A DNA stretch of 64,000 bases from Kocuria turfanensis (GTDB taxonomy: Bacteria; Actinomycetota; Actinomycetes; Actinomycetales; Micrococcaceae), in assembly GCF_001580365.1 (NCBI RefSeq), contig NZ_CP014480.1, positions 1,799,008 to 1,863,007 on the forward strand, given 5' to 3'. The notes below the pieces were generated by a model, which saw nothing but the letters and a program-made list of their open reading frames with translations, searched no databases and was not told the origin of the DNA. This document shows positions 2,115 to 24,757 of this stretch, piece after piece. Both the position numbers and the translations under genes were made by a program. Each line of letters opens with the position of its first letter. Within the stretch, counting starts at the first letter, position 1.

Positions 2115-2118
2115 GGCC

Positions 2119-2517: not shown

Positions 2518-2523
2518 GGCGTC

Positions 2524-2542: not shown

Positions 2543-2705
2543 CCGATTCCCCGGGGTCAAGGGCGCAGGTGCGGCACGTCGGGTCCTGGCTGTACCGGCG
2601 CGCGGGGCGGGCCCCGAGGTGGGTCCGGGAGCCCGCCCCGGCCGTCCCGGGGAACGGCGCCCGGCCGCGGGCAGCGGAACGCCGGCTCCGGGCGGGAGGC
2701 GGAGC

Positions 2706-4616
<1,911 letters not shown>

Positions 4617-4622
4617 CCGGCC

Positions 4623-4628
4623 AGGGTA
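4623..4628 (-). promoter_or_regulatory. -10 box of recQ, leaderless configuration
   Basis: TACCCT on the minus strand, 6 nt before the GTG start. No ribosome-binding site fits between them, so transcription probably starts at or next to the start codon. Confidence 0.45.
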
Positions 4629-4649
4629 GCCGGTGCGGGCCCGGGAGCG

Positions 4650-7004: not shown

Positions 7005-7010
7005 GGGACC

Positions 7011-7016
7011 ACGGTA
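7011..7016 (-). promoter_or_regulatory. -10 box of the GH65 gene, leaderless configuration
   Basis: TACCGT on the minus strand, 6 nt from the ATG at 7004. The spacing leaves no room for a Shine-Dalgarno sequence. Confidence 0.45.
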
Positions 7017-7058
7017 GCGCTCCCCGGCGAGCCGCGGCCCCGGGTGCGGCGCCGCGGC

Positions 7059-7862: not shown

Positions 7863-8022
7863 GCTGATCTCCTGGGTCGGTGTGCTGGTCCGGTGCGGTG
7901 TGCTCGCCGGGCTCGGTGCTGGTCGGGGCTGGGAAGTGATCGGGGCCGGGTGCCGGCGGGTCCGGGAGGCGGCGGTCCGCCTGTCCTCGGGGCCCGCGGC
8001 CGCCGGGGGCTGGCGGGGCCGG

Positions 8023-8829: not shown

Positions 8830-8836
8830 GGCCCGC

Positions 8837-8842
8837 ATCCTA
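8837..8842 (-). promoter_or_regulatory. -10 box of modA, deciding its start codon
   Basis: TAGGAT on the minus strand, 7 nt before the ATG at 8829. The other in-frame ATG (8838) overlaps this hexamer and so is unlikely to be transcribed. Confidence 0.4.
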
Positions 8843-8890
8843 CGCGGCCCCTCCCCCGGGTGTCCGTGCGGTGCCGTCAGAGCCCAGCAC

Positions 8891-8896
8891 TAGCAT
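8891..8896 (+). promoter_or_regulatory. -10 box of nadE, leaderless configuration
   Basis: TAGCAT ends 6 nt before the nadE ATG at 8903. No Shine-Dalgarno fits, and no clear -35 is seen. Confidence 0.45.
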
Positions 8897-8902
8897 GGGT
8901 GC

Positions 8903-9727
8903 ATGCGGAAACTCCAGGCAGCAATCATCGACGAGATGGGCGTGAAGCCCGAGATCGACCCCCAGCAGGAGATCGAGGCGCGCGTCCGGTTCCTCTGCGA
9001 CTACCTCCGGGCCAGCCGCAGCCAGGGCTTCGTGCTCGGGATCAGCGGCGGCCTCGACTCCACCCTGGCGGGCCGGCTGGCCCAGCTGGCCGCCGAGAGG
9101 CTGCGCGCCGAGGGCGGCGAGGCCCAGTTCGTGGCGGTGCGCCTGCCGTACCGGGTCCAGCACGACGAGGACGACGCCCAGGCCGCCCTGCGCTTCATCG
9201 CCGCCGACCGCACCATCACCTACGACATCGCCCCGGCGGTGGACGGCTTCGAGCACGGCTTCGAGGGCGCCACGGACCGGAGGATCTCGGACTTCAACAA
9301 GGGCAACATCAAGGCCCGCGTGCGGATGATCGCCCAGTACGCGATCGCCGGGGAGCACCACTGCCTGGTGATCGGCACCGACCACGGCGCCGAGTCCGTG
9401 ACCGGGTTCTTCACCAAGTACGGCGACGGCGGGGCGGACCTGCTGCCCCTGTTCGGGCTGAACAAGCGGCAGAACCGGCTCCTCGCCAAGACCCTCGGCG
9501 CCGAGGAGCGGCTGTGGGCGAAGGCGCCCACCGCCGACCTGCTCGACGACGCCCCCGGCCAGACGGACGAGGCCGAGCTCGGGCTGTCCTACGACGACAT
9601 CGACGACTACCTGGAGGGCCGCGACGTGGACGACGCCGTGGCCGAGAAGATCGAGCACCGCTGGCTCACGACCCGGCACAAGCGCACCACGCCGGCCACG
9701 ATCCTCGACGACTGGTGGCGGGACTGA
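8903..9727 (+). CDS. nadE: NH3-dependent NAD+ synthetase NadE
   Basis: A 274-aa cytoplasmic enzyme for the last step of NAD biosynthesis: ATP-dependent amidation of deamido-NAD. The PP-loop SGGLDST is at residues 48-54. Also visible are [39 protein letters not shown] and a [17 protein letters not shown] segment, all typical of the short form. No N-terminal glutamine amidohydrolase domain is present, so ammonia is the expected nitrogen donor. It is a monocistronic gene ending at a strong hairpin. The RNA is predicted leaderless from the TAGCAT box 6 nt upstream. Confidence 0.96.
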
Positions 9728-9749
9728 CGCCGGGGGCACCCGCAGCGCG

Positions 9750-9787
9750 ACGGAGCCGCGCACCCCGATCGGGGTGCGCGGCTCCGT
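9750..9787. terminator. Bidirectional terminator, 38-bp perfect palindrome
   Basis: A perfect palindrome with 17-bp arms (first bases ACGGAGCCGCGC) around a central GATC, between the convergent nadE stop and the CAP/LGFP gene stop. There is no long T-run on either side, as is common for GC-rich actinobacterial terminators. Confidence 0.85.
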
Positions 9788-9799
9788 CGTCGGGCCCGC

Positions 9800-11053
9800 T
9801 CAGCGGGTGGCCCAGGTCCGCCCGGCGGCGTAGTGGACGGTGTAGCCCTTGGAGAAGCGCTGGCGCACCTCGGCGCCGTAGCGGTACTCGTCGGTGACGG
9901 GGAACCCGTAGCCGCGCTCGGAGCCGGCGGCCTTCCAGGCCCGGCCGATCGCCCCGTACAGCTTGATCGCGCGGGAGCCCGTGCCGGCGCTCCACATCAC
10001 CTGGGTGGAGCGCCCGTCGCGGCGGAAGACCTGGTAGGCGCCCCCGCTGACGGGGCGTTCGTCCGTGCTCGGCAGACCGTAGTTGTGCTCCCGGCCGGCT
10101 CCGATCCACTTCTGCCCGATCGAGCCGTAGTTCTTCACCGCCATCGCCCCGTAGCCGGGGGCCCAGTAGATGGTGGTGGTGCGGCCGCTCCTGCGGAACT
10201 GCTGGTACACCCCGCCGTCCACCAGGCCGCCGCGCTCGTTCATCGTGGGTTCCCCCAGCACGGCGGACCCGCCCAGGCGCTGGTACTTGGTGGCGATCGC
10301 GCCGCGGACGGCGTAGGCCGGGGCGGTCACCGGGGGCACGAATCCCTGGGCCGGGGTCGCGAAGGTCCCGGGCACGGCCTGCCCGGCCGGATAGGCGTAG
10401 TAGTAGACGGTCAGATAGGTCTCCCAGCCGGGGCCGTCCGAGCCCGACGTGGCCACGTGGCTGACACCGATGCCGAGGTGGGTCAGGTCCCGGGCGAACT
10501 GGTCGGTCCCGTTGCGGGGAAAGAAGTCCAGCAGGTAGTGGGTGAGCGCCTCGACCGCGTCGGTGCCCGCGAAGGCGCCGGTGAACACGCCCTTCCCGTA
10601 GTACTGGTCCATCCGGACGCCGCCGGCCGGGGCGCCCGCCCAGGGGTCCGGATTGCGCGACTCCTTGCGGGCGCCGGCCATGGTCTCGGCCCACTGCTGG
10701 GCGTTGCGGGACAGGGCCGTGTTGTAGACCAGGGGGGCACGGTTCGCCTGGCGCCGGTGGTCGTTGACGATCTTGAAGGCCTCGGTCACGTGCTCCACCG
10801 TGGTGGGGTGCACGCCCGCGGAGGCCGCTCCGGCCAGGCCGCCGCCGGCGGAGGGGTCCACCGGCGCCGGCGGGACGGCCGGGGCCGGCTCGGTGGCCGA
10901 GCCGCCCTCCAGCTGCACGGCCGGTGCGCCGGCGGCGTGGGCCGGCTCCGGCGGGACGGCGGGAGGATGCGGTGCGGCGAGCGCGGCCGGCAGCCCGCCG
11001 AGGAGCAGCGCGGCGGCAGTGGTCACGGTGAGCACGGTCCGTGCGAGGTTCAT
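9800..11053 (-). CDS. Secreted CAP-domain protein with LGFP repeats
   Basis: A 417-aa exported protein. The signal peptide is MNLARTVLTVTTAAALLLGG...ALA. A Pro/Ala-rich linker follows, then a CAP/SCP domain (VTEAFKIVNDHRRQANRAPLVYN, NAQQWAETMAG). The C-terminal third consists of three to four LGFP repeats of about 50 aa, each with G-x-I-x-x-K and a YQ/F-R-R-x-G-R-x-T strand. LGFP repeats are known from actinobacterial envelope proteins such as corynebacterial Cmt1/PS1, so cell-wall attachment is likely. The frame stays open further upstream, but the ATG at 11053 gives the signal peptide and has a GGGAGAGA ribosome site. Enzymatic activity is not predictable. Confidence 0.8.
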   Translation of the reverse strand: MNLARTVLTVTTAAALLLGGLPAALAAPHPPAVPPEPAHAAGAPAVQLEGGSATEPAPAVPPAPVDPSAGGGLAGAASAGVHPTTVEHVTEAFKIVNDHRRQANRAPLVYNTALSRNAQQWAETMAGARKESRNPDPWAGAPAGGVRMDQYYGKGVFTGAFAGTDAVEALTHYLLDFFPRNGTDQFARDLTHLGIGVSHVATSGSDGPGWETYLTVYYYAYPAGQAVPGTFATPAQGFVPPVTAPAYAVRGAIATKYQRLGGSAVLGEPTMNERGGLVDGGVYQQFRRSGRTTTIYWAPGYGAMAVKNYGSIGQKWIGAGREHNYGLPSTDERPVSGGAYQVFRRDGRSTQVMWSAGTGSRAIKLYGAIGRAWKAAGSERGYGFPVTDEYRYGAEVRQRFSKGYTVHYAAGRTWATR

Positions 11054-11257
11054 GGGGTCTCTCCCTGCTGGGGGCGGCTCCGCCGGGGGCGCGGGCCAGC
11101 AGGAAATTAGCATCTGCAACCACACGCGGTCGAGACCCCGGGGACGCCCCACGTCATCCGGCGCGGCGGCACGGCGCCGGAGCACGCCGGGGACGACCGC
11201 CGGGCACGCCCCGGTGCCGCGCCCGGGTGCGCGGGCGCTGCCGTCCGGGCCACCCGG

Positions 11258-11263
11258 TAACGT
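11258..11263 (+). promoter_or_regulatory. -10 box of xthA, leaderless configuration
   Basis: TAACGT ends 7 nt before the xthA ATG at 11271. It lies in the 217-bp divergent spacer shared with the CAP/LGFP gene. That spacer also holds an unusually A/T-rich AAATTAG at 11103-11109, possibly the opposite promoter. Confidence 0.45.
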
Positions 11264-11270
11264 GGGGCCC

Positions 11271-12077
11271 ATGAAGATCGCCACCTGGAACGTGAACTCC
11301 GTCCGCGCCCGCGCCGACCGCGTGGAGGCCTGGCTGCAGCGCTCCGACGTGGACGTCCTGGCCATCCAGGAGACCAAGGCCAAGGACGAGAACTTCCCGT
11401 GGGAGCTCTTCGAGTTCATGGGCTACGACGTCGCCCACTTCGGCCTGAGCCAGTGGAACGGCGTGGCGATCGCCTCGCGGGTGGGCCTCGACGACGTCGA
11501 GCGCACCTTCCCGGACCAGCCGGCCTTCGGCAAGCCCGGCGAGGACCCGGTGCAGGAGGCGCGCGCGATCGGCGCCACGTGCAACGGGGTCCGCGTCTGG
11601 TCCCTCTACGTCCCCAACGGCCGCGGCCTGGACGACCCCCACATGCCGTACAAGCTGGAGTGGCTGCGCGTGCTCAAGGACCACGCCCGGCAGTGGGTCG
11701 AGGAGGACCCTCAGGCCCAGGTCGCCCTCGTGGGCGACTGGAACGTCGCCCCGCTGGACGAGGACGTGTGGGACATGCAGTTCTTCCTGGACAACGGCCT
11801 CACCCACGTCAGCGAGCCCGAGCGCGCCGCCTTCCGCGCCTTCCTCGAGGAGGCCGGCTACCAGGACGTGGTCCGCCCCCGGCTGCCCGGCCCGGGCGTC
11901 TACACCTACTGGGACTACAAGGGCCTGCGCTTCCCGAAGAAGGAGGGCATGCGCATCGACTTCCAGCTCTACTCCCCGGCCCTGGCCGACCGGGTCACCG
12001 ACGCGGTGATCGACCGCGAGGAGCGCAAGGGCAAGGGCGCCTCGGACCACGCCCCCGTCGTCGTCGAGATCGCCTGA
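11271..12077 (+). CDS. xthA: Exodeoxyribonuclease III
   Basis: A 268-aa AP endonuclease/3'-5' exonuclease of the EEP fold for base-excision repair. Visible motifs: MKIATWNVNSVRAR, LAIQETKAKD (metal-binding Glu), LVGDWNVAPLDEDVWD and the C-terminal SDHAPVVVEI catalytic His. Longer frames upstream add only low-complexity residues. The ATG at 11271 starts the conserved sequence and sits 7 nt after TAACGT. The next gene follows after 6 nt and is probably cotranscribed. Confidence 0.95.
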   Translation: MKIATWNVNSVRARADRVEAWLQRSDVDVLAIQETKAKDENFPWELFEFMGYDVAHFGLSQWNGVAIASRVGLDDVERTFPDQPAFGKPGEDPVQEARAIGATCNGVRVWSLYVPNGRGLDDPHMPYKLEWLRVLKDHARQWVEEDPQAQVALVGDWNVAPLDEDVWDMQFFLDNGLTHVSEPERAAFRAFLEEAGYQDVVRPRLPGPGVYTYWDYKGLRFPKKEGMRIDFQLYSPALADRVTDAVIDREERKGKGASDHAPVVVEIA

Positions 12078-12083
12078 GCCGCC

Positions 12084-12956
12084 GTGGCCCAGCTGCTGCA
12101 GGTCGGCCGGACGTTCCGCTCGGCCACGGGAGTCCCCCACCAGTTCGCCCTCCGCGTCTACGTGCCCGCGGAGGAGCTCGACGCCGTGTACGCGCCGCTG
12201 CTGCCCCGGGCGCTGCCGCCCGAGGAGGCCGGGGTGAACGAGCTCACCGAGCAGCTCGCCCGCCTGGCCGAGCCGGGCGAGGAGCCGCTGCCGCCGGCGG
12301 TGGAGCCCCTGTGGACCCTGCCGTTCTCGGCGGCACCCCGGGGCCGGGACATGCTCGCCGCCGGCGTCGGGGACTTCCCCGTGTACCACCCCCCGCAGCG
12401 GCTGCGGCGCTCGCTGCGTCTCGTCGCGCTCGCCGAGGAGGAGGGCGGCCAGCCCCTGCCCAACCTGCTCATTCCCGAGGACGTGGTCCGGGCCGCCGGC
12501 GAGCAGGTCACCCGGGAGCACTTCGTGCCCGTCCACGCCCGCCAGTCGGCGTTCACGGTGCCCATGGCGTGGTTCGCCCTCTTCACCCCGGAGGACCACA
12601 CCGAGAGCTTCCACCACGGCAACCGCGTCCACCGGTGCGCCGTGCCGGTCGACACCGCGACCCTGCGGGTGGCGCACGCGGCGCAGGTGGTCGAGGACGC
12701 CGGCGGCGAGGACCTCGAGGAGCTCGCCGACGACCTCACGCACCTCGGCCGGTGGCTCGGCGCGTTCTCCGCCAACTCGCTGGTGGTCCTGCACTACGGG
12801 GCGCTCGCGGACCCGTTCCAGCCGGACGAGAGCCCGCAGGACTTCGAGGACGCCGTGGAGCTGCTGGCGTCCCGGGACGCCAACGGCGCCGCCGTGGCCT
12901 TCCGCCGGCTCATGCACCGCTGGCTGCCCCTGGCCCACCTGGAGAGCGCCAGCTGA
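12084..12956 (+). CDS. Conserved actinobacterial protein of unknown function
   Basis: A 290-aa acidic soluble protein from a GTG start, 6 nt after xthA. I recognise no family motif, and there is no signal peptide or membrane segment. The sequence is even in composition, with Trp-, Phe- and His-containing stretches (MAWFALFTPEDHTESFHHGNRVHRCAVPVD) and a C-terminal helix pair (DDLTHLGRWLGAFSANSLVVLHYGALADPF). This composition supports a real folded protein. Tight linkage suggests coexpression with xthA, but a role in DNA repair is only a guess. Confidence 0.75.
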   Translation: MAQLLQVGRTFRSATGVPHQFALRVYVPAEELDAVYAPLLPRALPPEEAGVNELTEQLARLAEPGEEPLPPAVEPLWTLPFSAAPRGRDMLAAGVGDFPVYHPPQRLRRSLRLVALAEEEGGQPLPNLLIPEDVVRAAGEQVTREHFVPVHARQSAFTVPMAWFALFTPEDHTESFHHGNRVHRCAVPVDTATLRVAHAAQVVEDAGGEDLEELADDLTHLGRWLGAFSANSLVVLHYGALADPFQPDESPQDFEDAVELLASRDANGAAVAFRRLMHRWLPLAHLESAS

Positions 12957-13014
12957 GCCCCACGGCGGGGACCACCCGTCCGGGGCCCGGCGGTTCCCGT
13001 GGTAGAACTGCCCG

Positions 13015-14262
13015 GTGAACCCGCCCACCCCGCCCCCGGACCGCTTCCCCGCCCCTGCCCGCGTCCCGCGGTGGCTGGTGGTGGCCGCGGTCGTGCTGGT
13101 CGCGGTGAATCTCCGTCCCGGCGCCACGTCCGTGGGCCCGGTCCTGGCCGAGATCCAGCAGGGCCTCGGGCTGAGCCCCACGATGGCCGGGGTGCTCACC
13201 GCCCTGCCCGGTCTCACCTTCGCGGTGGCCGGGGCGGGGGCGGCCGCGCTGTCCCGCCGGACGGGGATCAGCGGCGCCGTCACCGCCGGCCTCGCCCTGG
13301 TCGCCGCCGGGCTGCTGGGGCGGGCGGTCACCGGCTCGGTGCCGGTGTTCCTGGCCCTGACGGTCCTGGGCTTCGCCGGCATGGCCGTGGGCAACATCCT
13401 GGTGCCGGCCTTCATCAAGCGCCACGGCGGCCGGCGCACCGCCGCGCTGAACTCCGTGTACACGACCGGCCTGGCCGTGGGCGCCACCCTGCCCCTGCTG
13501 GCGGCGGGGCCGCTGACCGCCCGGGGCCCCGAGGGCTGGCGGGCCGCCCTCGGCCTGTGGGGCCTGATGGCCCTGGTGGCGCTGCTCCCCTGGCTGCTGG
13601 TGACCGCCCGGGACCGGCGCGAGGCGGCCACGGCACCGTCCCGGGCGCTGCCCGGGGGGCCGGGGGCGGCGATCGCCCGGTCCCGCACCGCCGTGGCCCT
13701 GTGCGTGTACTTCGGGATCCAGTCGATGCACGCCTACGTCCAGTTCGGCTGGGTGGCGCAGATCTACCGCGACGGCGGACTGGACCAGGCGCGTGCCGGT
13801 CTGCTGATGGCCCTGATCGCCGCGATGGGGATCCCGGGCGGGCTGCTCATGCCCCTGCTCGTGGCCGGCTCCCCGCACCTGCGGCGCTGGATCGCGGGAC
13901 TGGGGACCTGCATGGTCACCGGCTACCTCGGGCTGATGCTCGCGCCCGCCACGGTCCCCTGGGTCTGGGCCCTGCTGCTGGGGGTCGGGGGCTTCGCCTT
14001 CCCCACCGCCCTGGCCCTGCTCACCGCGCGCACCCGGGATCCCCGGATCACCGCACGGCTCTCCGGGTTCATCCAGCCGGTGGGCTATCTGCTGGCCGCG
14101 GTCGGCCCCTTCGCCGTGGGCGCCCTGCACGAGGCCACCGGCAGCTGGACGGTCCCCCTGGTCCTGCTGATGGGCACCGGCCTGGTGCTCGTCGCGGCCG
14201 GCTGGGTCGCCGCCGCACCGCGCTGGGTCGACGACGAGCTCGCGGGCCCGCCCCGGCCGTAG
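13015..14262 (+). CDS. MFS transporter of the CynX/NimT (cyanate/2-nitroimidazole) type
   Basis: A 415-aa membrane protein with about 12 hydrophobic segments from a GTG start. The early motif VNLRPGATSVGPVLAEIQ is the hallmark of the CynX/NimT group of the major facilitator superfamily. It is followed by the SRR cytoplasmic loop 2-3 and a paired second half (NTLV... FGIQSMHAYVQFGWV). The family includes cyanate importers and nitroimidazole exporters, and the substrate here cannot be told. No cyanase gene is nearby. Confidence 0.82.
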   Translation: MNPPTPPPDRFPAPARVPRWLVVAAVVLVAVNLRPGATSVGPVLAEIQQGLGLSPTMAGVLTALPGLTFAVAGAGAAALSRRTGISGAVTAGLALVAAGLLGRAVTGSVPVFLALTVLGFAGMAVGNILVPAFIKRHGGRRTAALNSVYTTGLAVGATLPLLAAGPLTARGPEGWRAALGLWGLMALVALLPWLLVTARDRREAATAPSRALPGGPGAAIARSRTAVALCVYFGIQSMHAYVQFGWVAQIYRDGGLDQARAGLLMALIAAMGIPGGLLMPLLVAGSPHLRRWIAGLGTCMVTGYLGLMLAPATVPWVWALLLGVGGFAFPTALALLTARTRDPRITARLSGFIQPVGYLLAAVGPFAVGALHEATGSWTVPLVLLMGTGLVLVAAGWVAAAPRWVDDELAGPPRP

Positions 14263-14316
14263 CGGCAGCCCGGCCGCCGTCGGCCCCGGTGGTGGCCGTC
14301 CCCGGGGCCGGGGCCG

Positions 14317-14322
14317 TAGCGT
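14317..14322 (+). promoter_or_regulatory. -10 box of the 14329 membrane protein gene, leaderless configuration
   Basis: TAGCGT ends 6 nt before the ATG at 14329. It lies within the 66-bp gap after the MFS gene. Confidence 0.45.
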
Positions 14323-14328
14323 GGACGG

Positions 14329-14895
14329 ATGAGCACGAGCGGCAGAGCGGGAGCGTGGGTGTTCGGCGCGGCGGTGGCCGCGGCCGTGGCCAGTGCTGTG
14401 GGCCTGGGCCTGATCCAGCACTGGGACGGGATGCTGCGCTTCGCGGCGGTGACGGTGGTGCTGCTGCTGACCCGGCGGGCGCGCGTGCCCACCGGCTTCG
14501 TGGCGGCCTTCGCGGTGCTGGTGCTCCTGGCGATGTGGGGTTCGGTGCAGCACTGGTACGCGCAGGTCCCGCACTTCGACACGGTCGTCCATGTCCTGAC
14601 CCCCGGCAGCCTGGCGGCGGTGTCCTACTTCCTGCTGGTGGACGCCCGCCTGCTGCCCGACGCCCGGGAGACCGGACGGCCGGTCCGGGGATGGGCCCCG
14701 GTCGTGTGGGTGGGCGTGGTCGGCACCACCGCGGCGGTGCTGTGGGAGTACTACGAGTGGGTGGTCGAGCAGATCAGCCCGCAGGGCATGCTCGTGGGCT
14801 ACACGGACACGGTCGTGGACCTGCTCGCCGGGATGTGCGGCTCTCTGGTCGCCGGGCTGCTGGTGCTGCGCTGGGCGCGGCGCGCCGGGACCTGA
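14329..14895 (+). CDS. Small integral membrane protein, resembles YjdF/DUF2238-type
   Basis: A 188-aa protein with about five transmembrane helices. Polar residues are conserved-looking inside or beside the helices: HFDTVVHVLTPG, LWEYYEWVVEQ and GYTDTVVDLLAGMCGS. The HxxD/WExxE/DTxxD pattern resembles the YjdF (DUF2238) membrane family. I call it only on that resemblance. Function is unknown. Its promoter box gives it its own start despite being close to the MFS gene. Confidence 0.7.
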   Translation: MSTSGRAGAWVFGAAVAAAVASAVGLGLIQHWDGMLRFAAVTVVLLLTRRARVPTGFVAAFAVLVLLAMWGSVQHWYAQVPHFDTVVHVLTPGSLAAVSYFLLVDARLLPDARETGRPVRGWAPVVWVGVVGTTAAVLWEYYEWVVEQISPQGMLVGYTDTVVDLLAGMCGSLVAGLLVLRWARRAGT

Positions 14896-15261
14896 TCCCC
14901 GCCCGGGCCGGGAGCGTGCGGACAGAGGCCCCCGGGTTCCCAGGGGAATCCGCTCGCCGCCCCGGCGCGGTGCGGCACGAGGTCGTCCCCGCGGCCGTCT
15001 CGGCGATCGGCTGAGATGCCGGCGGAGCCTTTGCGCCCGCGGACGTGATGACCCCCGACCTGGGCGCCACCACAACGCGCGCGGCGAGGTCCCTGCACAG
15101 ACCGTCACGGACCGGTCACGTTTCCGGACGTGGCCGGCAGGACAGCGCCTCGGCTGTTGAAAGGCCCCGCTCAGTGTGCTTACGGTCTGTCGGTCCATCG
15201 ACGGTTTCCTGCACACCGGGCCCGCCCGGACCCGTCGCAGCAACGCACCAGGAGGCACTCC
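14896..15261. other. 366-bp non-coding spacer
   Basis: Only short low-complexity frames are present. The right third holds the putative promoter at 15157-15186 and the GGAGG ribosome site of the lipoprotein at 15262. I see no RNA gene or repeat. Confidence 0.6.
15157..15186 (+). promoter_or_regulatory. Sigma-70-like promoter of the 15262 lipoprotein
   Basis: TTGAAA (15157-15162), an 18-bp spacer and TACGGT (15181-15186) precede the start by about 75 bp. An AGGAGG ribosome site lies just upstream of the ATG, so this gene has a normal leader. Confidence 0.45.
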
Positions 15262-15795
15262 ATGACCGCCCGTGAACGCCGTTCCACCGCCCGCACCGCC
15301 GCCGCCGCACTCGCCGCGGTCGCCGCGCTCGGCCTGACCGGGTGCAGCACCGAGGGCCCCGAGACCGGCACCGACGTCGAGGACGTCAGCGAGGGAGAGG
15401 TCCTGGAGTCCTCCCCCGCCCCGCAGAACAGCTCCACCGCCGGGGACACCTTCGTCGGCGACTACGACCAGGGCTTCCACGACGCGCGGGAGACCTACGT
15501 CGGCCAGCAGGTCACGCTCTCCGCCGAGGTGGACGACGTCATCGGCGACGACGGCCTGGTGATCGCCGGCGCGGCGGAGAACACCGTGGACCCGCTGCTG
15601 GTCCTCTACGACATGGACCAGGTCGACGTCGAGGAGGGCCAGGCCGTGGAGGTCGTCGGCACGGTCCAGCGGTCCTTCGACCCCTCGACCCTGGACGACC
15701 AGGCCCAGGAGGACTTCACCGACGAGCTCTACCAGGACCACGAGCAGCAGCCCTACGTCGAGGCCGACTCCGTCCGACTGCTGCCCGAGCAGTAG
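15262..15795 (+). CDS. Lipoprotein, paralogue of the 17582-18025 lipoprotein
   Basis: A 177-aa exported lipoprotein: signal peptide ending LTGC with the lipidated Cys at residue 28, an acidic linker, then a compact beta-rich domain (YVGQQVTLSAEVDDVIGDD, VEVVGTVQRSF, YVEADSVRLL). The strand pattern suggests an OB-like fold. The same order of segments occurs in the lipoprotein on the other side of the cardiolipin synthase, so the two are probably paralogues. No ligand or partner can be named. An AGGAGG site 5-6 nt before ATG 15262 fixes the start. Confidence 0.78.
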   Translation: MTARERRSTARTAAAALAAVAALGLTGCSTEGPETGTDVEDVSEGEVLESSPAPQNSSTAGDTFVGDYDQGFHDARETYVGQQVTLSAEVDDVIGDDGLVIAGAAENTVDPLLVLYDMDQVDVEEGQAVEVVGTVQRSFDPSTLDDQAQEDFTDELYQDHEQQPYVEADSVRLLPEQ

Positions 15796-17581: not shown

Positions 17582-18025
17582 CTACCCGGCGACGGTGACG
17601 GTGGCGTCGACGAGGTAGGGCTCGGTCTCACGGTTGACGAGGTAGTTGGCGGTCTGCTCGTCGGTGAGCCGGTACAGCCGCTCCCGGTCCCCGGGATCGC
17701 TGAACAGGTCACCGGCGGCCACGGTGCCGGTGACCTCCACCTCGTCGCCGGGGCGCAGATCGGCCGGCATGTCCTCGACGAAGACGACGGTCTGTTCGTC
17801 TCCCATGGTCAGGAACTCCTCACCGTAGATGCCGTCCACCTCGTTGGTCAGGGTGATCTCCTTCCCGACCAGTTCCTCGGTGGCGACCTGGGACTGGTCG
17901 AGCTCCGTCAGCCGGGTCTCGCCCTGGCATCCCGCCAGCAGCAGCGCGCCGGTCAGGCCGGCGGCGGCCAGGGGCAGGGTGCGGCGGGTCGGGGTGCGGC
18001 GGGTCGGGGTGCGGTGGGTCATCAT
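17582..18025 (-). CDS. Lipoprotein, paralogue of the 15262-15795 lipoprotein
   Basis: A 147-aa protein with an Arg/Thr-rich n-region, hydrophobic core and lipobox LAGC (Cys at about residue 33). The mature part starts with a short linker and then VGKEITLTNEVDGIYGEE, VEVTGTVAAGD and a C-terminal EPYLVDATVTV, aligning with the other lipoprotein. Two consecutive ATGs occur at 18025 and 18022. A GGAGGA site suits either. The n-region is encoded by three 15-bp tandem repeats. It converges on cls. Confidence 0.75.
   Translation of the reverse strand: MMTHRTPTRRTPTRRTLPLAAAGLTGALLLAGCQGETRLTELDQSQVATEELVGKEITLTNEVDGIYGEEFLTMGDEQTVVFVEDMPADLRPGDEVEVTGTVAAGDLFSDPGDRERLYRLTDEQTANYLVNRETEPYLVDATVTVAG
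17978..18020 (-). repeat. Three 15-bp tandem repeats encoding the lipoprotein n-region
   Basis: The unit GGTGCGGCGGGTCGG (plus strand) occurs at 17978, 17993 and, with one change and truncated, 18008. It encodes repeated RTPTR residues of the signal peptide. Copy number could vary without shifting frame. Confidence 0.8.
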
Positions 18026-18379
18026 GGTCCTCCTCGGTGCTGCGGTGACGGAGTGCGCACGGTGGTCGGTCCTGGATCGCGGTCCGGCCGCGCTGGTTGC
18101 CGGACCCGGTCGGGGCGTGGGAGCCGCCGGTCGCGAAGGACCGGACAGCCCCGCCCTCCTCCCATGGCACACCACGACAGCGGACGACGGGGCCTCTGCC
18201 CCGGACCTTCCGAGGTCCTGCCGCGCATCCTCTGCGGGAATCGTGACCCGTTCGTGCTGGTGCCCGCGCTCTCGTCGGGGAGTCCAGGACGCAGGATCGG
18301 CCGCCGCCCCGTCCGGACAGGCCCCGTCCGCACCCGTCCGCACCGGCCGGAGGAACCCCGGGCTCGTGACCGGCGGGGC
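18026..18379. other. 354-bp spacer without a supported gene
   Basis: Overlapping open frames exist on both strands, but all are Arg/Pro-rich GC-driven frames without motifs. It must contain the promoter of the minus-strand lipoprotein, with GGAGGA next to its start. I see nothing else. Confidence 0.5.
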
Positions 18380-19681
18380 TCAGGGAGCGGTGCGGGACGG
18401 CGCCTCGACGGAAGAACGGTCGCGGCCGTGGCCGCGCAGCACGACCGGCAGCGCCGCGGCGGCCAGGAGCGCGAGCAGGGCCAGGGGGATCCACGGCGTG
18501 CCGGGCCACCAGTGGTGGCGGGCGGTGAGCTCGAGCAGCATCCCGAGCCCGGCGTTGCCCACGAGCACGGCGACACCGCCGCAGGTGGCGGCCAGCCCGT
18601 AGTAGGCGCCCCGGCCGGCGCCGGCCCCCGGGGAGGGGAGGAAGCCGGGAATCAGGGACAGGATCGTGGGGGTGAGCAGCATGTGCCCCAGGATCAGGAC
18701 CGCGACGGTGGCCATGACCGGCAGCACGGAGCTCTCGGACGCTCCCGCCGGCACCGAGGTGACGGCGGCGGTGGCGAACGCGGCGGCGACCAGGAGGAAC
18801 CCGGCCGACAGGGCGCGCCCCGGCCCCATCCGCCGGCCCAGGGCGGAGACCGGCAGCTGCAGGAGCAGGGTCAGCGCCGAGGCGAGCAGGAACAGCGCGC
18901 CCAGCCAGGCCGCGTCCAGGCCGCGCCGGCCCAGGTCGACGGGAACGGTGAAGTAGAGCTGGTTGTAGGCGAGCATGTTCGTGCCCGCGAGCAGGCAGAA
19001 CACGACGAAGCGCCGGTTGCGCAGGCACTCCAGGGCGGGTCCGGGTCGGCCCGTGCCCGCGTCCACCGCGTCCCGGCCCCGCGGCGGCCGGCCGGGGTCG
19101 GCGGGAAGGCGGAACCACAGCAGGACGGTCACGAGGGCGAACACCGCGATTCCGGCCGCCAGCGCCGCGTCGAAGCCCCAGCCCAGCAGGGCGGTGCCCA
19201 GCACGGGGCCCAGCACCGCGCCCAGCTCGCCGGTGATCGCCAGCCACACGAACACCGACCGCCGGCCCGCGCCCCCGGGCCCGGGACCTCCGGCCGGCGG
19301 CTGGTCGGCGTGGGAGAGCTGGGACTCCAGCGCGGGCGAGAACAGGGCGCCCCCGGCGCCGGTGAGGACCGCGCCGAGCAGGAAGAGGGGGAAGTCCGAG
19401 GCCGCCGCCAGGGTGGCGTAGCCCAGGATGCGCACCAGGCAGCCGGTGAGGATGGCCCGGCGGGGGCCCCAGCGGTCGGCCAGCAGCCCGCCGAACAGGA
19501 ACATGCCCTGCTGGCTGAAGGTGCGGGCCCCGAGCACCAGCCCGATCGCGGCGGCGTCCAGGCCGTACTCGGTGCCCATGGCGCCTGCGAGGAAGGGGAT
19601 GACGGCGTAGAAGCCGATGTTGAACACCAGCTGGGCCCCGAGCAGGGTGCGGGTCTCGGCCCGGGGATCAGGCGGGGACAT
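18380..19681 (-). CDS. MFS exporter, last gene of the iron-box ABC operon
   Basis: A 433-aa, 12-TM major facilitator protein (YIPFLAG... FLFGGLLADRWGPRRAILTG motif A, GAGGALFSPALES motif C). Motif C marks drug/solute exporters of the MdtH/EntS-like groups. The ATG at 19681 has GGAG 7 nt upstream, whereas the GTG at 19684 would be too close. It overlaps the upstream ATPase gene by 14 nt. As the last gene of a binding protein-permease-permease-ATPase set, it occupies the place of CntE, the metallophore exporter in the Staphylococcus cnt operon. That role is inferred. Confidence 0.85.
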   Translation of the reverse strand: MSPPDPRAETRTLLGAQLVFNIGFYAVIPFLAGAMGTEYGLDAAAIGLVLGARTFSQQGMFLFGGLLADRWGPRRAILTGCLVRILGYATLAAASDFPLFLLGAVLTGAGGALFSPALESQLSHADQPPAGGPGPGGAGRRSVFVWLAITGELGAVLGPVLGTALLGWGFDAALAAGIAVFALVTVLLWFRLPADPGRPPRGRDAVDAGTGRPGPALECLRNRRFVVFCLLAGTNMLAYNQLYFTVPVDLGRRGLDAAWLGALFLLASALTLLLQLPVSALGRRMGPGRALSAGFLLVAAAFATAAVTSVPAGASESSVLPVMATVAVLILGHMLLTPTILSLIPGFLPSPGAGAGRGAYYGLAATCGGVAVLVGNAGLGMLLELTARHHWWPGTPWIPLALLALLAAAALPVVLRGHGRDRSSVEAPSRTAP

Positions 19682-21293
19682 CACGGTGCTCCGACGCCAG
19701 GGCGTGGTGGTCCAGGATCGCGCACACCCGGGGCAGGGCCGCCGCGACCAGCTGCCGGCTGTGCTCGTGGCGGGGCGCGGCGAAGAACTCGCGGGTCGGC
19801 GCGAGCTCGACGAGGGCTCCGTGGTGGAGCACCGCGACCCGGTGGCTCATGTAGCGGATGACGCCCAGGTCGTGGGAGATCATGATCAGCGACAGCGGCC
19901 GGTCCCGGTGCAGCCGCAGCAGCAGGTCCAGGACGGTGCGCTGGGTCGCCGCGTCCAGGGCCGAGGTGGCCTCGTCGCAGATGAGCACCGACGGTTCCAG
20001 CAGCAGGGCCCGGGCGATGGTGAGCCGCTGCAGCTGCCCGCCCGAGCACTGGCCGGGATGCCGTTCCAGCAGCTCGGGGTCGAGCTCCACCTCGCGCACC
20101 GCGTCCAGGAGACGGGCCTCCCGCTCCTCCGCGGTGAGGTCCCTGTGCTGCCGCAGGGGGGCCTCCAGGCTGGTGCGCAGCCGCATGCGGGGGTCGAAGG
20201 AGTCGTGCGGTTCCTGGAAGACCAGCTGCACGGCCGTGCTCACCGGACCGGCGCCCTCGGCCGCCCCCGGCGCCCGGGCGACGCGTCCGGCGTCGGGGGT
20301 CTCCAGCCCGACGGCCAGACGGGCCAGGGTGCTCTTCCCGGAGCCGGACTGGCCCAGGACCCCGAGGATCTCCCGGTCGCGCAGCTCGAGCGTGACCTGT
20401 TCCAGGGCAGGGCGCCCACGGCGCCGGCCCGTGCCGAAGGTCTTGGTGACGCGTTCCAGCGCCAGCGCGGCACCCGTTCCCGCGGCGGGCGGCGGCGTGC
20501 CGGCGGGGGTCAGGGCCGCCGCCTCCAGCAGGGCCCGGGTGCACGCGCTCCGGGGACGGTTGAGCACGGTTCCGGCCGGGCCCGCCTCGACGACGCGCCC
20601 GGCGTCGAGCACCACCACGCGGTCCGCGTAGGCGGAGACGGTGGCCAGGTTGTGGCTGATGTAGAGCACCCCCAGCCCGCGGTCGCGCCGCTCCCGGTCG
20701 AGCAGCTCGAGGATCTGCCGCTCGAGGACCGTGTCGAGGGCGGAGGTCGGCTCGTCCGCGAGCAGCACCTCCGGCCGGCCGGCGAGGGCGAGGGCCACCA
20801 TGGCCCGCTGGGCCATGCCTCCGGAGAGCTGGTGGGGGTGCGCGCGTGCGCAGGACTCCGGGTCCCGAAAGCCCACCTCGGACAGCAGCTCGAGCGCCCG
20901 CTCCCGGGCCGCCCCGCCCCGGAGCCCGCCGTGGAGCCGCAGGGGTTCCCGCAGGTGCTCGAGGACGGTCCGGCGGGGATTGAACATCCGCTTGGGCTGC
21001 TGGTACAGCATGCCGATCCGCCCGCCGCGGACCCTGTTCAGCTCGGCCTCGCCCGCCCGGGCGAGGTCGCTCCCGCCCAGCCGGATCGATCCGGAGTCGA
21101 GCTGCACCTGCGGGGGCAGCAGGCCCAGGACGGACATGGCCGTCATCGTCTTGCCGCTGCCGGAGGCGCCGACCAGGGCCACGAACTCCCCCGGCGCCAC
21201 GGCGAGGTCGACCCCGCACAGCACCGGCCGGGGGGCTCCGGAGGGCCCTCGCCGGCTGACGTGCAGCTGCTCGACGCTCAGCCCCTCAGGCAT
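19668..21293 (-). CDS. Fused double ATP-binding protein of a NikDE/DppDF-type ABC importer
   Basis: A 541-aa protein containing two complete ABC ATPase domains. The first has Walker A GASGSGKT, signature LSGGMAQR and Walker B LLADEPTSALD. The second has GQSGSGKS, CSGGQLQR and LICDEATSALD. They are joined by a Pro/Ala linker near residue 270. Peptide/nickel/metallophore importers normally use two separate ATPases (DppD and DppF, NikD and NikE, CntD and CntF), so this is the fused version. It overlaps the permease gene upstream by 8 nt and the MFS gene downstream. Confidence 0.93.
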   Translation of the reverse strand: MPEGLSVEQLHVSRRGPSGAPRPVLCGVDLAVAPGEFVALVGASGSGKTMTAMSVLGLLPPQVQLDSGSIRLGGSDLARAGEAELNRVRGGRIGMLYQQPKRMFNPRRTVLEHLREPLRLHGGLRGGAARERALELLSEVGFRDPESCARAHPHQLSGGMAQRAMVALALAGRPEVLLADEPTSALDTVLERQILELLDRERRDRGLGVLYISHNLATVSAYADRVVVLDAGRVVEAGPAGTVLNRPRSACTRALLEAAALTPAGTPPPAAGTGAALALERVTKTFGTGRRRGRPALEQVTLELRDREILGVLGQSGSGKSTLARLAVGLETPDAGRVARAPGAAEGAGPVSTAVQLVFQEPHDSFDPRMRLRTSLEAPLRQHRDLTAEEREARLLDAVREVELDPELLERHPGQCSGGQLQRLTIARALLLEPSVLICDEATSALDAATQRTVLDLLLRLHRDRPLSLIMISHDLGVIRYMSHRVAVLHHGALVELAPTREFFAAPRHEHSRQLVAAALPRVCAILDHHALASEHRDVPA

Positions 21294-22131
21294 CCGGCAC
21301 CGTCCGGGAGGGCGCGGAGGAGAGCACCATGCGGGTGCTCGTCGCCCGGGCCAGGCGCTGGCCGACGAGGGTGACGCACAGGGCGACGACGAAGACCACC
21401 AGCCCGGGGGCGAGGATCGTCAGCGGGGACCGGGCCGCGTACGGCTGGGCGGCGGCCAGCATCGCCCCCCAGTCCGACTGCGGGGGCTGCACCCCCAGGC
21501 CCAGGTAGGACAGGGCTCCCACGGTGATCAGGAACTGCCCGAAGCGCAGCGTGGCCTGCCCGAGCAGCGGCCCCGCCAGGTGCGGCAGGACGTGGCGCAG
21601 CACGATGAAGGAGGGCGAGCAGCCGAGGACCCGGGCGGCCTCCACGAAGCCGCGTGCCGAGACGTCGTAGGTCAGCGCCCGGGCCAGCCGGGCGAACGGC
21701 GTCCAGCCGGTCACGGTCAGGGCCAGCAGCAGGGACAGGTGGCCGGGACCGAGCACGGCCACCAGGAACAGGGCCACGACCATCTCCGGCAGGGCCAGCA
21801 GGACGTCGCTGGTCCGGGTGAACAGCTCGTCCAGCCAGCCCCGGCGGCGGGCGCTGAGCACCCCGATGGCGGTGCCCGTCACCGCGGTGAGCACCGTGGC
21901 CAGCGCGGCGACGGTCAGGGAGAACCGCCCGCCGTCGAGGAGCCGGCTCAGCGTGTCCCGTCCCAGGTGGTCGGTGCCCAGCCAGTGGGCGGCGCTGGGC
22001 GGGGCGAGCCGGGCCGTGAGGTCCTGCGCGGCCGGCGGGTGGGGCGCGAGCCAGGGTGCGAGGGCCACGGCGAGCACGACGAGGGCCAGGACCGCCGACG
22101 CGGCCCACACGAGGGCGCGGCGCTCACGCAC
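21286..22131 (-). CDS. ABC importer permease, DppC/NikC/CntC type
   Basis: A 281-aa membrane protein with about six hydrophobic segments. The N-terminal HWLGTDHLGRDTLSRLLDGGR motif is typical of DppC-class subunits. An EAA loop (AARVLGCSPSFIVLRHVLPHLAGPL) docks with the ATPase. It overlaps the upstream permease gene by 8 nt. Confidence 0.92.
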   Translation of the reverse strand: MRERRALVWAASAVLALVVLAVALAPWLAPHPPAAQDLTARLAPPSAAHWLGTDHLGRDTLSRLLDGGRFSLTVAALATVLTAVTGTAIGVLSARRRGWLDELFTRTSDVLLALPEMVVALFLVAVLGPGHLSLLLALTVTGWTPFARLARALTYDVSARGFVEAARVLGCSPSFIVLRHVLPHLAGPLLGQATLRFGQFLITVGALSYLGLGVQPPQSDWGAMLAAAQPYAARSPLTILAPGLVVFVVALCVTLVGQRLARATSTRMVLSSAPSRTVPDA

Positions 22132-23065
22132 GGCGCCCCCTGAGCCGCGGGTTGAGCAGGCCGTGGACCAGGTCGGCGGCGGTGGTCAGCAGGACGGCCA
22201 GGCCCACGACGACGACCACGCCGCCCTGTGCCAGGGGGATGTCGCTGTTGCGCACCGCGTCGTAGAGCAGCCGCCCCATGCCGGGAATGGCGAAGACGAC
22301 CTCCACGATGACGGATCCGCCCAGCAGCCCGGCGAACCAGACGGCCACCAGCGTGGTCAGGGGCAGCAGGCCGTTGGGGAGCACGTGCCGCCGGAGCGTC
22401 CGGACCCGTCCGAGGCCGCGGGCCCGGGCGGCGACGACGTGCTCGGCGCCCAGCGCGTCGAGGACTCCTTCGCGCACGGCGGAGGTGAAGTAGCTCGTCG
22501 GCCGCAGCGCGAGGACGGCCACCGGCAGGACCGCGGAGGACGGCCCCGACCACCCGGCGGAGGGCAGCAGCGACAGGTTGAGGGCGAACACCAGCACGAG
22601 CACCGGGGCGAGCCAGTACTCCGGCACGGCGATGAACGCCTGGGTGACCGTGGTGATCACCCGGTCGGCGGCCCGGCCCTCCTGCAGCGCGGCGACGACG
22701 CCCAGGACCACCGAGACCGCCGCGGCCGCCCCGAGGGTCATCACCACGAGGCTCAGCGTGACCGCCAGGGCGGGCAGCACCTGCTCGGCCACCGGGGTGC
22801 GGCTGGCGTAGGACAGCCCCATGTCGCCCCCGAGCAGCCGGCCCAGCCACCGCAGGTACTGCATCATCAGGGGGTCCTGGAGTCCCAGGTCGGCGGCCAG
22901 GGCCTGGGCGACGGAGTCGTCGATCACCTCTCCGGCCACCCGGGACCGGATGATCTTGCGCACCGGGTCCCCCGGTGTCACGTAGGGGATGAGGAAGACC
23001 ACGAAGGACGCGAGCAGGACGGTGATCCCCAGGGTCGCCGTCCGCCGGGCGAGGAAGGCCGTCAC
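22124..23065 (-). CDS. ABC importer permease, DppB/NikB/CntB type
   Basis: A 313-aa membrane protein. DppB-class signs are TLGITVLLASFVVFLIPYVTPGDP near the N-terminus, DLGLQDPLMMQYLRWLGRLLGGDMG and the EAA loop ARARGLGRVRTLRRHVLPNGLLP. The GTG at 23065 is chosen because it places the first transmembrane helix at the usual distance and has GGAAGGACGGG upstream. The longer frame adds Arg/Pro-rich residues unlike the family. Confidence 0.9.
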   Translation of the reverse strand: MTAFLARRTATLGITVLLASFVVFLIPYVTPGDPVRKIIRSRVAGEVIDDSVAQALAADLGLQDPLMMQYLRWLGRLLGGDMGLSYASRTPVAEQVLPALAVTLSLVVMTLGAAAAVSVVLGVVAALQEGRAADRVITTVTQAFIAVPEYWLAPVLVLVFALNLSLLPSAGWSGPSSAVLPVAVLALRPTSYFTSAVREGVLDALGAEHVVAARARGLGRVRTLRRHVLPNGLLPLTTLVAVWFAGLLGGSVIVEVVFAIPGMGRLLYDAVRNSDIPLAQGGVVVVVGLAVLLTTAADLVHGLLNPRLRGRRA

Positions 23066-23117
23066 GCGCGGTCCCGTCCTTCCGGTCGTCCCGGGGTCCT
23101 GGTGCTGCCGGTGGTGC

Positions 23118-24665
23118 TCACGAGGCGGGCTTGGTGGTCTCCGCGCGCAGCACGTACCGGGACAGCGGGTCCTGCCGGTGGTTCTGCAGATCGGCACGGA
23201 CCGCGTCGACGGCCTGCTCGTTGACCAGCCAGACGTTCACGGCCTGCTCCTCGAGGATCTCCCCGGCCCGGGCGTACAGCTCGTAGCGCTGCTCGGTGTC
23301 GGCGGTCCCGGCGGCCTGCGCCACGAGCCGGTCGTAGTCCTCGTCGCAGAAGTGGCTGAGGTTGTACGTGCCCTCGCAGGTGTAGTCGGCGGTGAGGAAG
23401 CCGATGGGGTCGGCGATGTCGATCAGGCGGTTGCGCTGGCTCAGCACCATGTCGTAGTCCCCGGCCAGCAGGTCCGGCTCCACGGCGGCGTACTCCTTGG
23501 TCGTGATGGTCACGGGGACCCCGACGCTCTTGAGGTTCTCCTGGATGACGGTGGCCACGTCGGCGAACTCGGCCCGCTCCACGATGGCGATGATCTCCAG
23601 CGGCCGCTCCGCGGTGTAGCCGGCGGCGGCCAGCAGCTCCTTCGCGGCGTCGGCGTCCTGCTGCGGGGCCTCGGCGCCCTCGGTCGCCCAGGGCTCGGAG
23701 GGCGCGAAGGGCCCGGTCGCCGGGAGGGCCGCCCCCTCGTAGACGCTGGCCGCCAGGGCGTCCAGATCCAGGGCCGAGCGGACGGCCTTGCGGAAGTCGA
23801 CGTCGTCGAACGGTGCCCGGCCGTTGTTCATGTACAGGGTCGCGGTGCGCGGGGACTCGGCCTTGAGGACCTCGACGGCGGAGTCGGCCTCCAGCGCGGC
23901 GACGTTGGCCGCCGGGATGGAGAGGGAGACGTCCGCCTCCCCGGTCTGGACCTGCGTGGCGCGGGTCGCCCCGTCGGTGATGAACCGGACCTCGGCGCCG
24001 GCCAGCTGGACCTCTCCGCCCCAGTAGTCCTCGTTGCGGTCCACGGTCAGGGACTGCTTGGGCTGCTCCGACACCGGGGTGAACGGCCCGGTGCAGTGCC
24101 CGAAGGGGTCCACCGACCCGCCCTCGAAGGCCGCCGGCGCCAGCACCCCGGTGTTGACGCTGGCCAGGCGGTACGGCACCAGCGGGCTCTCGGACGGGGT
24201 CGTGATCCGCACCGTGCGCTCGTCGACGGCCTCCACGCCGCTGACCACGGCGGGGCTGAAGGCGCGGGCCGGGACCTCCGCGTCGAGGACGGTCCGCAGC
24301 GAGGTCACCACCGCGTCGGCGGTCAGCGCCGTGCCGTCCTGGAACCGCACGCCCTCCCGCAGGGTGAACTCCCACTCCAGGGGCGAGACCTGCTCCCACT
24401 CCGTGGCCAGCGCCGGCACGATCTCGCCCGCCGCCTCGTCGTAGCGGGTCAGGGTCTCGAGGCACCCGGACAGGGACAGGATGTAGGCGGCGTCGCTCTC
24501 CAGCGCCCAGTCGGCGACCGGGGCGCGGAAGTTGTCCACCACGATCCGCTGCTCGCGGTCGGCCGCCCGGGCGGCACCTCCTTCCTCGCCGCTGAAGCCA
24601 CAGCCCGACAGGGCGAGAAGAGCCACGAGCCCGACGGGCGTCGCGGACCGGAGCGGAGAGCGCAC
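23118..24665 (-). CDS. SBP_bac_5 family substrate-binding lipoprotein (peptide/nickel/metallophore type)
   Basis: A 515-aa extracytoplasmic binding protein: signal peptide with lipobox LSGC, then the family pattern ILSLSGCLETLTRYDEAAGEIVPALATEWE and WEFTLREGVRFQDGTALTADAVV. Members bind oligopeptides, nickel-histidine or opine-type metallophores (CntA, NikA). The sequence does not tell which. It is the first gene of the operon, 74 bp downstream of an IdeR/DmdR-like iron box, which favours a metal-chelate ligand. Confidence 0.88.
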   Translation of the reverse strand: MRSPLRSATPVGLVALLALSGCGFSGEEGGAARAADREQRIVVDNFRAPVADWALESDAAYILSLSGCLETLTRYDEAAGEIVPALATEWEQVSPLEWEFTLREGVRFQDGTALTADAVVTSLRTVLDAEVPARAFSPAVVSGVEAVDERTVRITTPSESPLVPYRLASVNTGVLAPAAFEGGSVDPFGHCTGPFTPVSEQPKQSLTVDRNEDYWGGEVQLAGAEVRFITDGATRATQVQTGEADVSLSIPAANVAALEADSAVEVLKAESPRTATLYMNNGRAPFDDVDFRKAVRSALDLDALAASVYEGAALPATGPFAPSEPWATEGAEAPQQDADAAKELLAAAGYTAERPLEIIAIVERAEFADVATVIQENLKSVGVPVTITTKEYAAVEPDLLAGDYDMVLSQRNRLIDIADPIGFLTADYTCEGTYNLSHFCDEDYDRLVAQAAGTADTEQRYELYARAGEILEEQAVNVWLVNEQAVDAVRADLQNHRQDPLSRYVLRAETTKPAS

Positions 24666-24738
24666 GGGACCACCTCAGGTCGCCGCCCGAGGACGGCAGG
24701 GAATAAGGACACGGAAGAGTTCGGTAAAACCCCGGGGG

Positions 24739-24757
24739 AAAGGTTAGGGGAACCTAA
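24739..24757. promoter_or_regulatory. IdeR/DmdR1/DtxR-like iron box
   Basis: AAAGGTTAGGGGAACCTAA matches the actinobacterial iron-box consensus TTAGGTTAGGCTAACCTAA at 15 of 19 positions, by eye. It is strikingly A/T-containing in this GC-rich DNA. It lies 74 bp upstream of the binding-protein start and 164 bp upstream of the divergent GH13 gene. Iron-dependent repression of the transport operon is the expected outcome. Confidence 0.7.

Follow-up and report, generated by a model that had tools for sequence, protein, structure and literature searches.

An operon behind a conserved iron box in Kocuria turfanensis encodes a NikA-like importer and an MFS transporter and may scavenge an iron chelate

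We analyzed a stretch of 64,000 nucleotides (nt) of the Kocuria turfanensis genome (contig NZ_CP014480.1, positions 1,799,008 to 1,863,007), hereafter the window, with focus on a five-gene operon that lies behind a DtxR/IdeR-type iron box. The operon encodes a NikA-like binding lipoprotein, two permeases, a fused ATPase, and a transporter of the major facilitator superfamily (MFS). We consider it evenly balanced whether this is an iron-repressed scavenging cassette that imports a chelate, most likely of the nicotianamine/mugineic-acid class, and uses the MFS protein to expel the ligand; comparison shows the gene order, the conserved box, the NikA-like binding protein, and the linkage of the MFS gene to metal systems, whereas iron control, import, ligand identity, and export direction are inferred. 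When iron is short, a DtxR/IdeR-type repressor would leave the box (the box is observed, the response presumed). As their families suggest, the lipoprotein, the two permeases, and the fused ATPase would then import the whole iron-chelate complex. The ligand would most likely be a plant-made amino-polycarboxylate of the nicotianamine/mugineic-acid class that is not made by the Kocuria cell. Iron would be released inside the cell, and the MFS transporter would expel the empty ligand; this step would replace the catabolism found in relatives, some of which have no MFS gene and may degrade the ligand.

The first-pass annotation, made from the sequence letters, had described a single operon with this gene order behind a DtxR/IdeR-type box, and the five genes were indeed found in that arrangement on the minus strand:

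24757-24739, minus strand: DtxR/IdeR-type iron box TTAGGTTCCCCTAACCTTT, 15/19 against the consensus
24665-23118, minus strand: NikA-like family 5 solute-binding lipoprotein with the lipobox LALSGC, member of the iron-box clade (SBP_bac_5 in Pfam; profiles, tree, AlphaFold2, Foldseek)
23065-22124, minus strand: Nik/Dpp-type permease B (Pfam; best NCBIfam match Opp2B nickel permease with 254 bits, cut-off of 350 not reached)
22131-21286, minus strand: Nik/Dpp-type permease C (Pfam; best NCBIfam match NikC with 244 bits, cut-off of 358 not reached)
21293-19668, minus strand: fused double ABC ATPase, NikDE-like (two ABC_tran stretches in Pfam)
19684-18380, minus strand: MFS transporter of a family recurrent beside chelate importers (Pfam, genome survey, tree)

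The short gaps or overlaps between the genes were also recovered, as one gap of 52 nt followed by overlaps of 8, 8, and 17 nt. Both the binding-protein gene and the first permease gene (at 23065) start with GTG. The binding protein is 96% identical to a protein of Kocuria sp. CNJ-770.

The iron box was scored against a 19-position DtxR/IdeR consensus. TTAGGTTCCCCTAACCTTT, located 73 nt before the GTG of the binding-protein gene, reached the 15/19 that the first reading had reported, and it was the sole site with at least 14/19 in the window. Conservation was assessed in 67 fetched relatives of the locus, 62 of which (L031-L092) are actinobacterial and served as the iron-type set for box scoring. 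Upstream of the orthologous binding protein, a site with at least 14/19 was present in 61 of the 62 loci; only a Nesterenkonia locus (L074) fell short, at 12/19. The score never rose above 13/19 in control windows from these loci, and when each locus was scanned over its full length on both strands, no further site with at least 14/19 appeared, barring overlapping registers of the same box. The second copy in Paenarthrobacter nitroguajacolicus SM1928 (L084) has a binding protein with a 17/19 box, and permeases were not matched in that locus.

In the own genome (4.16 Mb), the strict consensus gave no match with up to three mismatches, showing that the iron boxes there are degenerate. Four of these boxes were used to build a pattern, which, with at most two mismatches, gave six matches at five distinct places, compared with two matches of the reversed pattern used as a control. 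These places were the present operon, two sites in a hydroxamate-type siderophore locus, one site just before a second siderophore-binding protein (PF01497), and one unexplained site. A search for other iron boxes in the genome had been proposed at first pass, and two siderophore-transport loci were marked by the same pattern as the operon. Chance occurrence of the box was rejected on the basis of its conservation, the control scores, and the own-genome pattern. The operon has the hallmark of a DtxR/IdeR regulon, a conserved 19-bp box common to known iron genes of the genome, which encodes three DtxR-family proteins. The box conservation supports the view that control of the operon is probably linked to iron. 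The unexplained site among the five places is a palindromic iron-box-like sequence at C1:2995465-2995483 of the genome, between two open reading frames (ORFs; a membrane protein and a hydrolase by eye) with no evident iron role.

The binding protein was compared with known families. Its NCBIfam scores were 239 bits for Opp5A_nikA, 140 for NikA, 123 for GsiB, 108 for DppA, and 88 for CntA. The components of the operon did not reach the cut-offs of NikA (140/393 bits), NikB (212/447), and NikC (244/358). The ATPase scored 384 and 353 bits against the NikD and NikE cut-offs of 319 and 333, each score being summed over the two fused domains. An AlphaFold2 model of the binding protein had a predicted local distance difference test (pLDDT) score of 92.3 and replaced an earlier model from a shallow alignment (pLDDT 48), which was discarded. 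The best Foldseek matches of this predicted structure were the NikA proteins of Staphylococcus aureus and Bacillus halodurans, and HbpA- and DppA-type entries were also close by fold. Thus, the structural comparison recommended at first pass put NikA first but did not separate it from peptide binders.

Family 5 binding proteins are often peptide-binding. It is improbable, although worth weighing, that the operon encodes a peptide or heme importer with an unrelated multidrug exporter at its end. The closeness of HbpA- and DppA-type entries by fold would agree with such an importer; the profiles, however, favor NikA over DppA. A grouping with dipeptide binders, which would have spoken against the first-pass idea, was therefore disfavored by the profiles and left undivided by the fold comparison. 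A tree of 99 binding proteins placed the 63 iron-box rows on one side of a branch with a Shimodaira-Hasegawa-like approximate likelihood ratio test (SH-aLRT) value of 94, and the 33 zinc-type rows were united with an SH-aLRT value of 100. The residues R235, R273, and R411 are invariant in both groups.

The zinc-type group is also represented in the own genome by a paralogue of the binding protein (40% identity), whose operon lies directly before genes for a ZnuC-like ATPase, an ABC-3 permease, and ZnuA (znuABC). A Zur-box consensus of 13 positions was applied to the 300 base pairs before the first gene in 35 zinc-type loci from across the class. Sites with at least 11/13 were found in 25 of these loci (at least 12/13 in 18), in 22 of 1902 control windows (at least 12/13 in 13), and in only 1 of the 62 iron-type loci (at least 12/13 in none). 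These Zur-boxed sister cassettes (e.g., L132, L135, L216, and L220) resemble the iron-type operon in the families of the binding protein and the MFS transporter and in being stand-alone transport cassettes. They differ in their Zur-like sites, their own binding-protein clade, and their architecture: in zinc-type operons, where read, the permease is fused and the ATPases are separate, whereas iron-type operons show the reverse.

Import of a nickel, cobalt, or zinc chelate, with incidental regulation by iron, could be proposed from the NikA-like binding protein, the zinc-type sister clade, and the ATPase scores above the NikD and NikE cut-offs, summed as they are over two domains. We regard it as the least probable of the alternatives, because iron boxes occur in 61 and Zur-like sites in 1 of the 62 iron-type loci, and because a separate zinc-type paralogue is encoded beside znuABC in the same genome.

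A related cassette was also seen outside the class. On a Klebsiella pneumoniae plasmid (L252; NZ_CP125195, 55222-76068), genes for two ATPases, an MFS transporter, a binding protein, and a fused permease follow in this order beside zigA, hisI, and a transcriptional repressor gene. The binding protein is 61% identical to the zinc-type one of Kocuria, and the MFS protein is 40% identical to that of the window. Among Klebsiella plasmid records, 479 match the binding protein and 475 match the MFS protein.

The MFS family was surveyed in 394 genomes of the class, where linkage was counted by hand and the best few candidates per genome were scored. Of the 35 binding-protein rows with an E value ≤1e-65, 24 have an MFS gene (E value ≤1e-30) no more than 8 kb away, compared with 0 of 30 weaker rows. 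Viewed from the transporter, 24 of the 28 best MFS rows were linked to a binding protein in this way, and three of the four unlinked rows adjoin other chelate importers. Two of them (L231 and L230) have PF01497 or FecCD genes next to them, and their loci contain iron boxes as well. The third (L244, genome G302) lies beside a more distant family 5 importer with PALP, ATP-grasp ligase, and methyltransferase genes and a Zur-like site, and the fourth (L245) has no recognized metal context. Two MFS relatives occur without a binding protein in one genome of the family of Kocuria (G031), one with a Zur-like site just before it (L138) and one without (L137).

In a tree of 52 MFS proteins, which is subject to a long-branch warning, metal labels were mixed. 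The MFS fragment of the zinc-type locus L135 was placed inside the ten-row clade of the window protein (support 100/100); given the starred branches, the iron label must have changed at least three times and the zinc label at least four times. Taken together with the linkage, the mixed labels indicate that the MFS pump seems to follow chelate transport rather than a single metal. In L135, from a genome of the same genus (G024), the MFS gene is split over two frames (8280-9496), corresponding to a frameshift or an assembly error. Another relative, on a Pantoea dispersa plasmid (L255, NZ_CP074351), is 45% identical to the window MFS protein and is encoded directly behind a binding protein, an iron-chelate permease, and an ATPase.

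This linkage also bears on the multidrug exporter postulated together with peptide or heme import. The best NCBIfam match of the MFS protein is MdtH, with 93 bits against a cut-off of 469, which would suit a drug exporter. On the other side, the MFS family tracks the binding-protein clade and Fec-type importers and appears to have moved between iron and zinc cassettes. Membership in an unrelated drug exporter clade, considered at first pass, is thus countered by the linkage to chelate importers, and the MdtH match that might support it stays below the cut-off. From its family, the transporter may export the ligand. Together, the conserved box, the NikA-like binding protein, and the MFS linkage support the first-pass proposal of a layout for import and export of a metal chelate.

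An exported ligand could also be a chelator of the cell's own making. It is possible, but rather unlikely, that the operon is a true metallophore shuttle, in which a chelator made by genes elsewhere is secreted by the MFS transporter and the ABC importer retrieves the complex. The Cnt-like layout with the MFS gene inside the operon, the hydroxamate-type siderophore pathway of the own genome, and the occurrence of a distant MFS relative in the L244 cluster with PALP, ATP-grasp ligase, methyltransferase, importer, and Zur-like site would all be consistent with a shuttle. However, the first-pass statement that the window lacks cntK/L/M biosynthesis genes was extended for cntL and cntM to the whole genome by profile searches. 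The opine dehydrogenase model CntM (PF10100) had no match in the own genome and one match in the 394 genomes of the class, and the nicotianamine synthase model CntL (PF03059) had no match in the own genome and one in 59 genomes, the own genome included. Neighbor genes were clustered for the 62 iron-type and 42 other loci, and annotation covered representatives from part of the recurrent clusters as well as a few individual genes, though not most one-off neighbors. Among the annotated recurrent neighbors, no biosynthetic gene was found; only the catabolic set described below and the L244 cluster stood out. One recurrent cluster (D4), a protein of 180 amino acids encoded before the binding protein in eight loci, had no NCBIfam match.

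The hydroxamate-type siderophore locus of the own genome (L133, C1:2746000-2765500) encodes a Lys/Orn oxygenase, an acetyltransferase-IucA/IucC-FhuF protein, two FecCD permeases, and a siderophore-interacting protein and contains two iron boxes. It has its own FecCD importer, which speaks against a shuttle for this compound, as does the distribution of the genes: IucA/IucC is present in 18 of 27 Kocuria genomes, and the iron-type binding protein is present in 4 of 27. The idea that the MFS transporter exports the cell's own hydroxamate was likewise weakened, because the hydroxamate locus already encodes an importer and because the MFS gene, detected at high identity in 4 of the 27 genomes, is far rarer than IucA/IucC. 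As to L244, its cluster (1685-15457) comprises a methyltransferase, PALP, an ATP-grasp ligase, a 535-amino-acid ORF without a Pfam match, a family 5 ABC importer, and the MFS gene, with the Zur-like site at 13885; it is possibly a cluster for zinc-metallophore biosynthesis.

A clue to the ligand of the proposed scavenging cassette came from relatives. In Rhodococcus opacus, a nodule Phyllobacterium, Aminobacter, a nodule Microvirga, and two genomes of the order of Kocuria (L224 and L225), binding proteins that share 41-51% identity and do not belong to the iron clade are encoded within catabolic operons. Besides the transporter, these operons encode a type II HAD protein, a flavin adenine dinucleotide (FAD) oxidoreductase, an aldehyde dehydrogenase, a class III aminotransferase, a tartrate dehydrogenase, and a GntR regulator, either in part or as a complete set. 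Using tblastn, the HAD and the FAD oxidoreductase were each detected in 4 of 8 outside-clade loci. Annotation added Aminobacter (both) and Agrobacterium (FAD oxidoreductase); the Sinorhizobium fredii locus L259 has none of the catabolic set.

Catabolic genes were also detected by tblastn in 12 of 63 iron-type loci but in 0 of 36 zinc-type loci. The azetidine-hydrolase-like HAD and a 2-hydroxyacid dehydrogenase were each present in 11 of the 63 iron-type loci, and the FAD oxidoreductase, the aldehyde dehydrogenase, and the tartrate dehydrogenase in 7 each. For the HAD, the difference between 11/63 and 0/36 corresponds to a Fisher p of 0.006. Between L224 and an Arthrobacter iron locus (L048), the FAD oxidoreductases share 62% identity.

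The best solved match of three of the HADs was the sequence shared by 3smv, 8ywo, and 9v14 (E values 3e-23, 9e-22, and 7e-23), followed at a distance by epoxide hydrolases (4e-11, 2.5e-9, and 1e-10). This sequence has been deposited both as (S)-2-haloacid dehalogenase and as L-azetidine-2-carboxylate hydrolase; the names in the top group are mixed, four further sequences being named (S)-2-haloacid dehalogenase only. By sequence, L-azetidine-2-carboxylate hydrolase is the best match of the linked HAD, far ahead of other HAD families. Mugineic acids contain azetidine-2-carboxylate, and tartrate dehydrogenases with D-malate activity are known. Nicotianamine, too, is reported to contain azetidine-2-carboxylate (PMC11794875), and the free compound is thought to be converted by such a HAD hydrolase to a product resembling gamma-aminobutyric acid (PMC8016842). 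The presence of an azetidine-hydrolase-like HAD led us to propose that the chelator may be nicotianamine or a mugineic acid. We infer a scheme that would suit these enzymes: the amine and the aldehyde would be oxidized, and the azetidine acid set free would be hydrolyzed.

The linked catabolic genes also bear on the origin of the ligand, which the first pass had left as made elsewhere or scavenged: because of them, scavenging appears favored and synthesis elsewhere disfavored. This clue has limits. None of the catabolic enzymes is encoded in the window. Of the 12 iron-type loci with catabolic genes, 10 have them on the strand of the box and upstream of it, and 2 (L042 and L066) have them downstream, on the opposite strand.

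The MFS gene was present in 22 of the 56 complete iron-type loci, located downstream in 10 (a partial match in L041), upstream on the same strand in 10, and divergently in 2. In none of the 56 loci did it occur together with the catabolic set: 22 have the MFS gene only, 11 the catabolic set only, and 23 neither. The exclusion has a Fisher p of 0.004, but the tree yields too few independent pairs, and a paired phylogenetic test was uninformative. That the two are never found together suggests that export and catabolism may be alternative ways to dispose of the ligand.

More tentatively, we propose a wider scheme, in which iron-nicotianamine or iron-mugineic acid would be taken up whole under iron control. 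The ligand would be exported by the MFS transporter (Kocuria, Glutamicibacter, and some Arthrobacter) or degraded by azetidine-2-carboxylate hydrolase, FAD amine oxidase, aldehyde dehydrogenase, and a D-malate/tartrate-type dehydrogenase (other Arthrobacter and Paenarthrobacter). Catabolic sister operons would exist in Rhodococcus and in alphaproteobacteria from nodules or soil, and a zinc sister controlled by Zur would be spread across Actinomycetes. Available text of earlier work states that phytosiderophores are degraded by soil microbes (PMC4143957) and, in a paper of 2021, mentions only one other study with isolates that decomposed them, for which no genetic information was given (PMC7786132). 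If true, the scheme names importers, exporters, and degradative enzymes for the use of plant iron carriers, assigns particular genes to the contest for iron between soil actinobacteria and crops, and describes one kind of transport cassette under zinc or iron regulators.

In the vicinity of the operon, the next gene upstream is divergent and encodes an alpha-amylase-family protein. Two small putative lipoprotein ORFs (15130-15795, plus strand, and 17582-18343, minus strand), alike by eye, flank a phospholipase D-like gene (judged by eye); no Pfam match was found for the ORF at 17582-18343.

Among known systems, the staphylopine cluster cntABCDF-E of S. aureus, to which the operon was compared at first pass, similarly joins an MFS exporter to a family 5 ABC importer in one gene cluster; for the Kocuria MFS protein, a putative exporter, the likeness to CntE is one of layout. 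The operon differs from it in having an iron box and a fused ATPase, no match to cntL or cntM, and a CntA score far below the cut-off (88 bits against 800). Biosynthesis genes are what defines the Cnt system; since the opine dehydrogenase and nicotianamine synthase models found no match in the genome, membership in it was rejected, and of the original comparison the layout stands while the biosynthesis genes and the CntA model do not support it. In both profile and Foldseek comparisons, the binding protein comes closest to NikABCDE importers, and S. aureus NikA was solved, according to the entry title, with Ni, L-His, and thiazolidine dicarboxylate. Unlike NikABCDE, the operon has an iron box and an MFS partner, and its proteins remain below the NikA, NikB, and NikC cut-offs.

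For Pseudomonas fluorescens SBW25, uptake and degradation of mugineic acids under iron limitation were proposed, as in our scheme; the candidate genes in the available text are different, and its authors ask for validation (PMC7786132). The nearest published counterpart is in Corynebacterium diphtheriae, where, as far as the available descriptions go, dip2162-2165 (nikA2) encodes a NikA/OppA-like importer repressed by DtxR and Zur, dip2125-2128 is its Zur-regulated counterpart, and the authors likened the system to CntABCDF (PMC6711530, PMC13001254). Compared by published description only, the binding protein, permeases, ATPase, and DtxR- and Zur-repressed versions are alike. The nikA2 operon differs in adjoining sidAB, and no MFS protein is named with it in those descriptions. 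Because dip2162-2165 is a published system of the same kind, the word "undescribed" used at first pass needs care: by this analogy, iron-controlled NikA-like importers in Actinobacteria are known in kind, and it is the Micrococcaceae operon for which no description appeared among the top-ranked open-licence papers listed. As far as that literature goes, what is new is the Micrococcaceae clade with its conserved box, the MFS family common to the iron and zinc versions, and a catabolic linkage that hints at the ligand.

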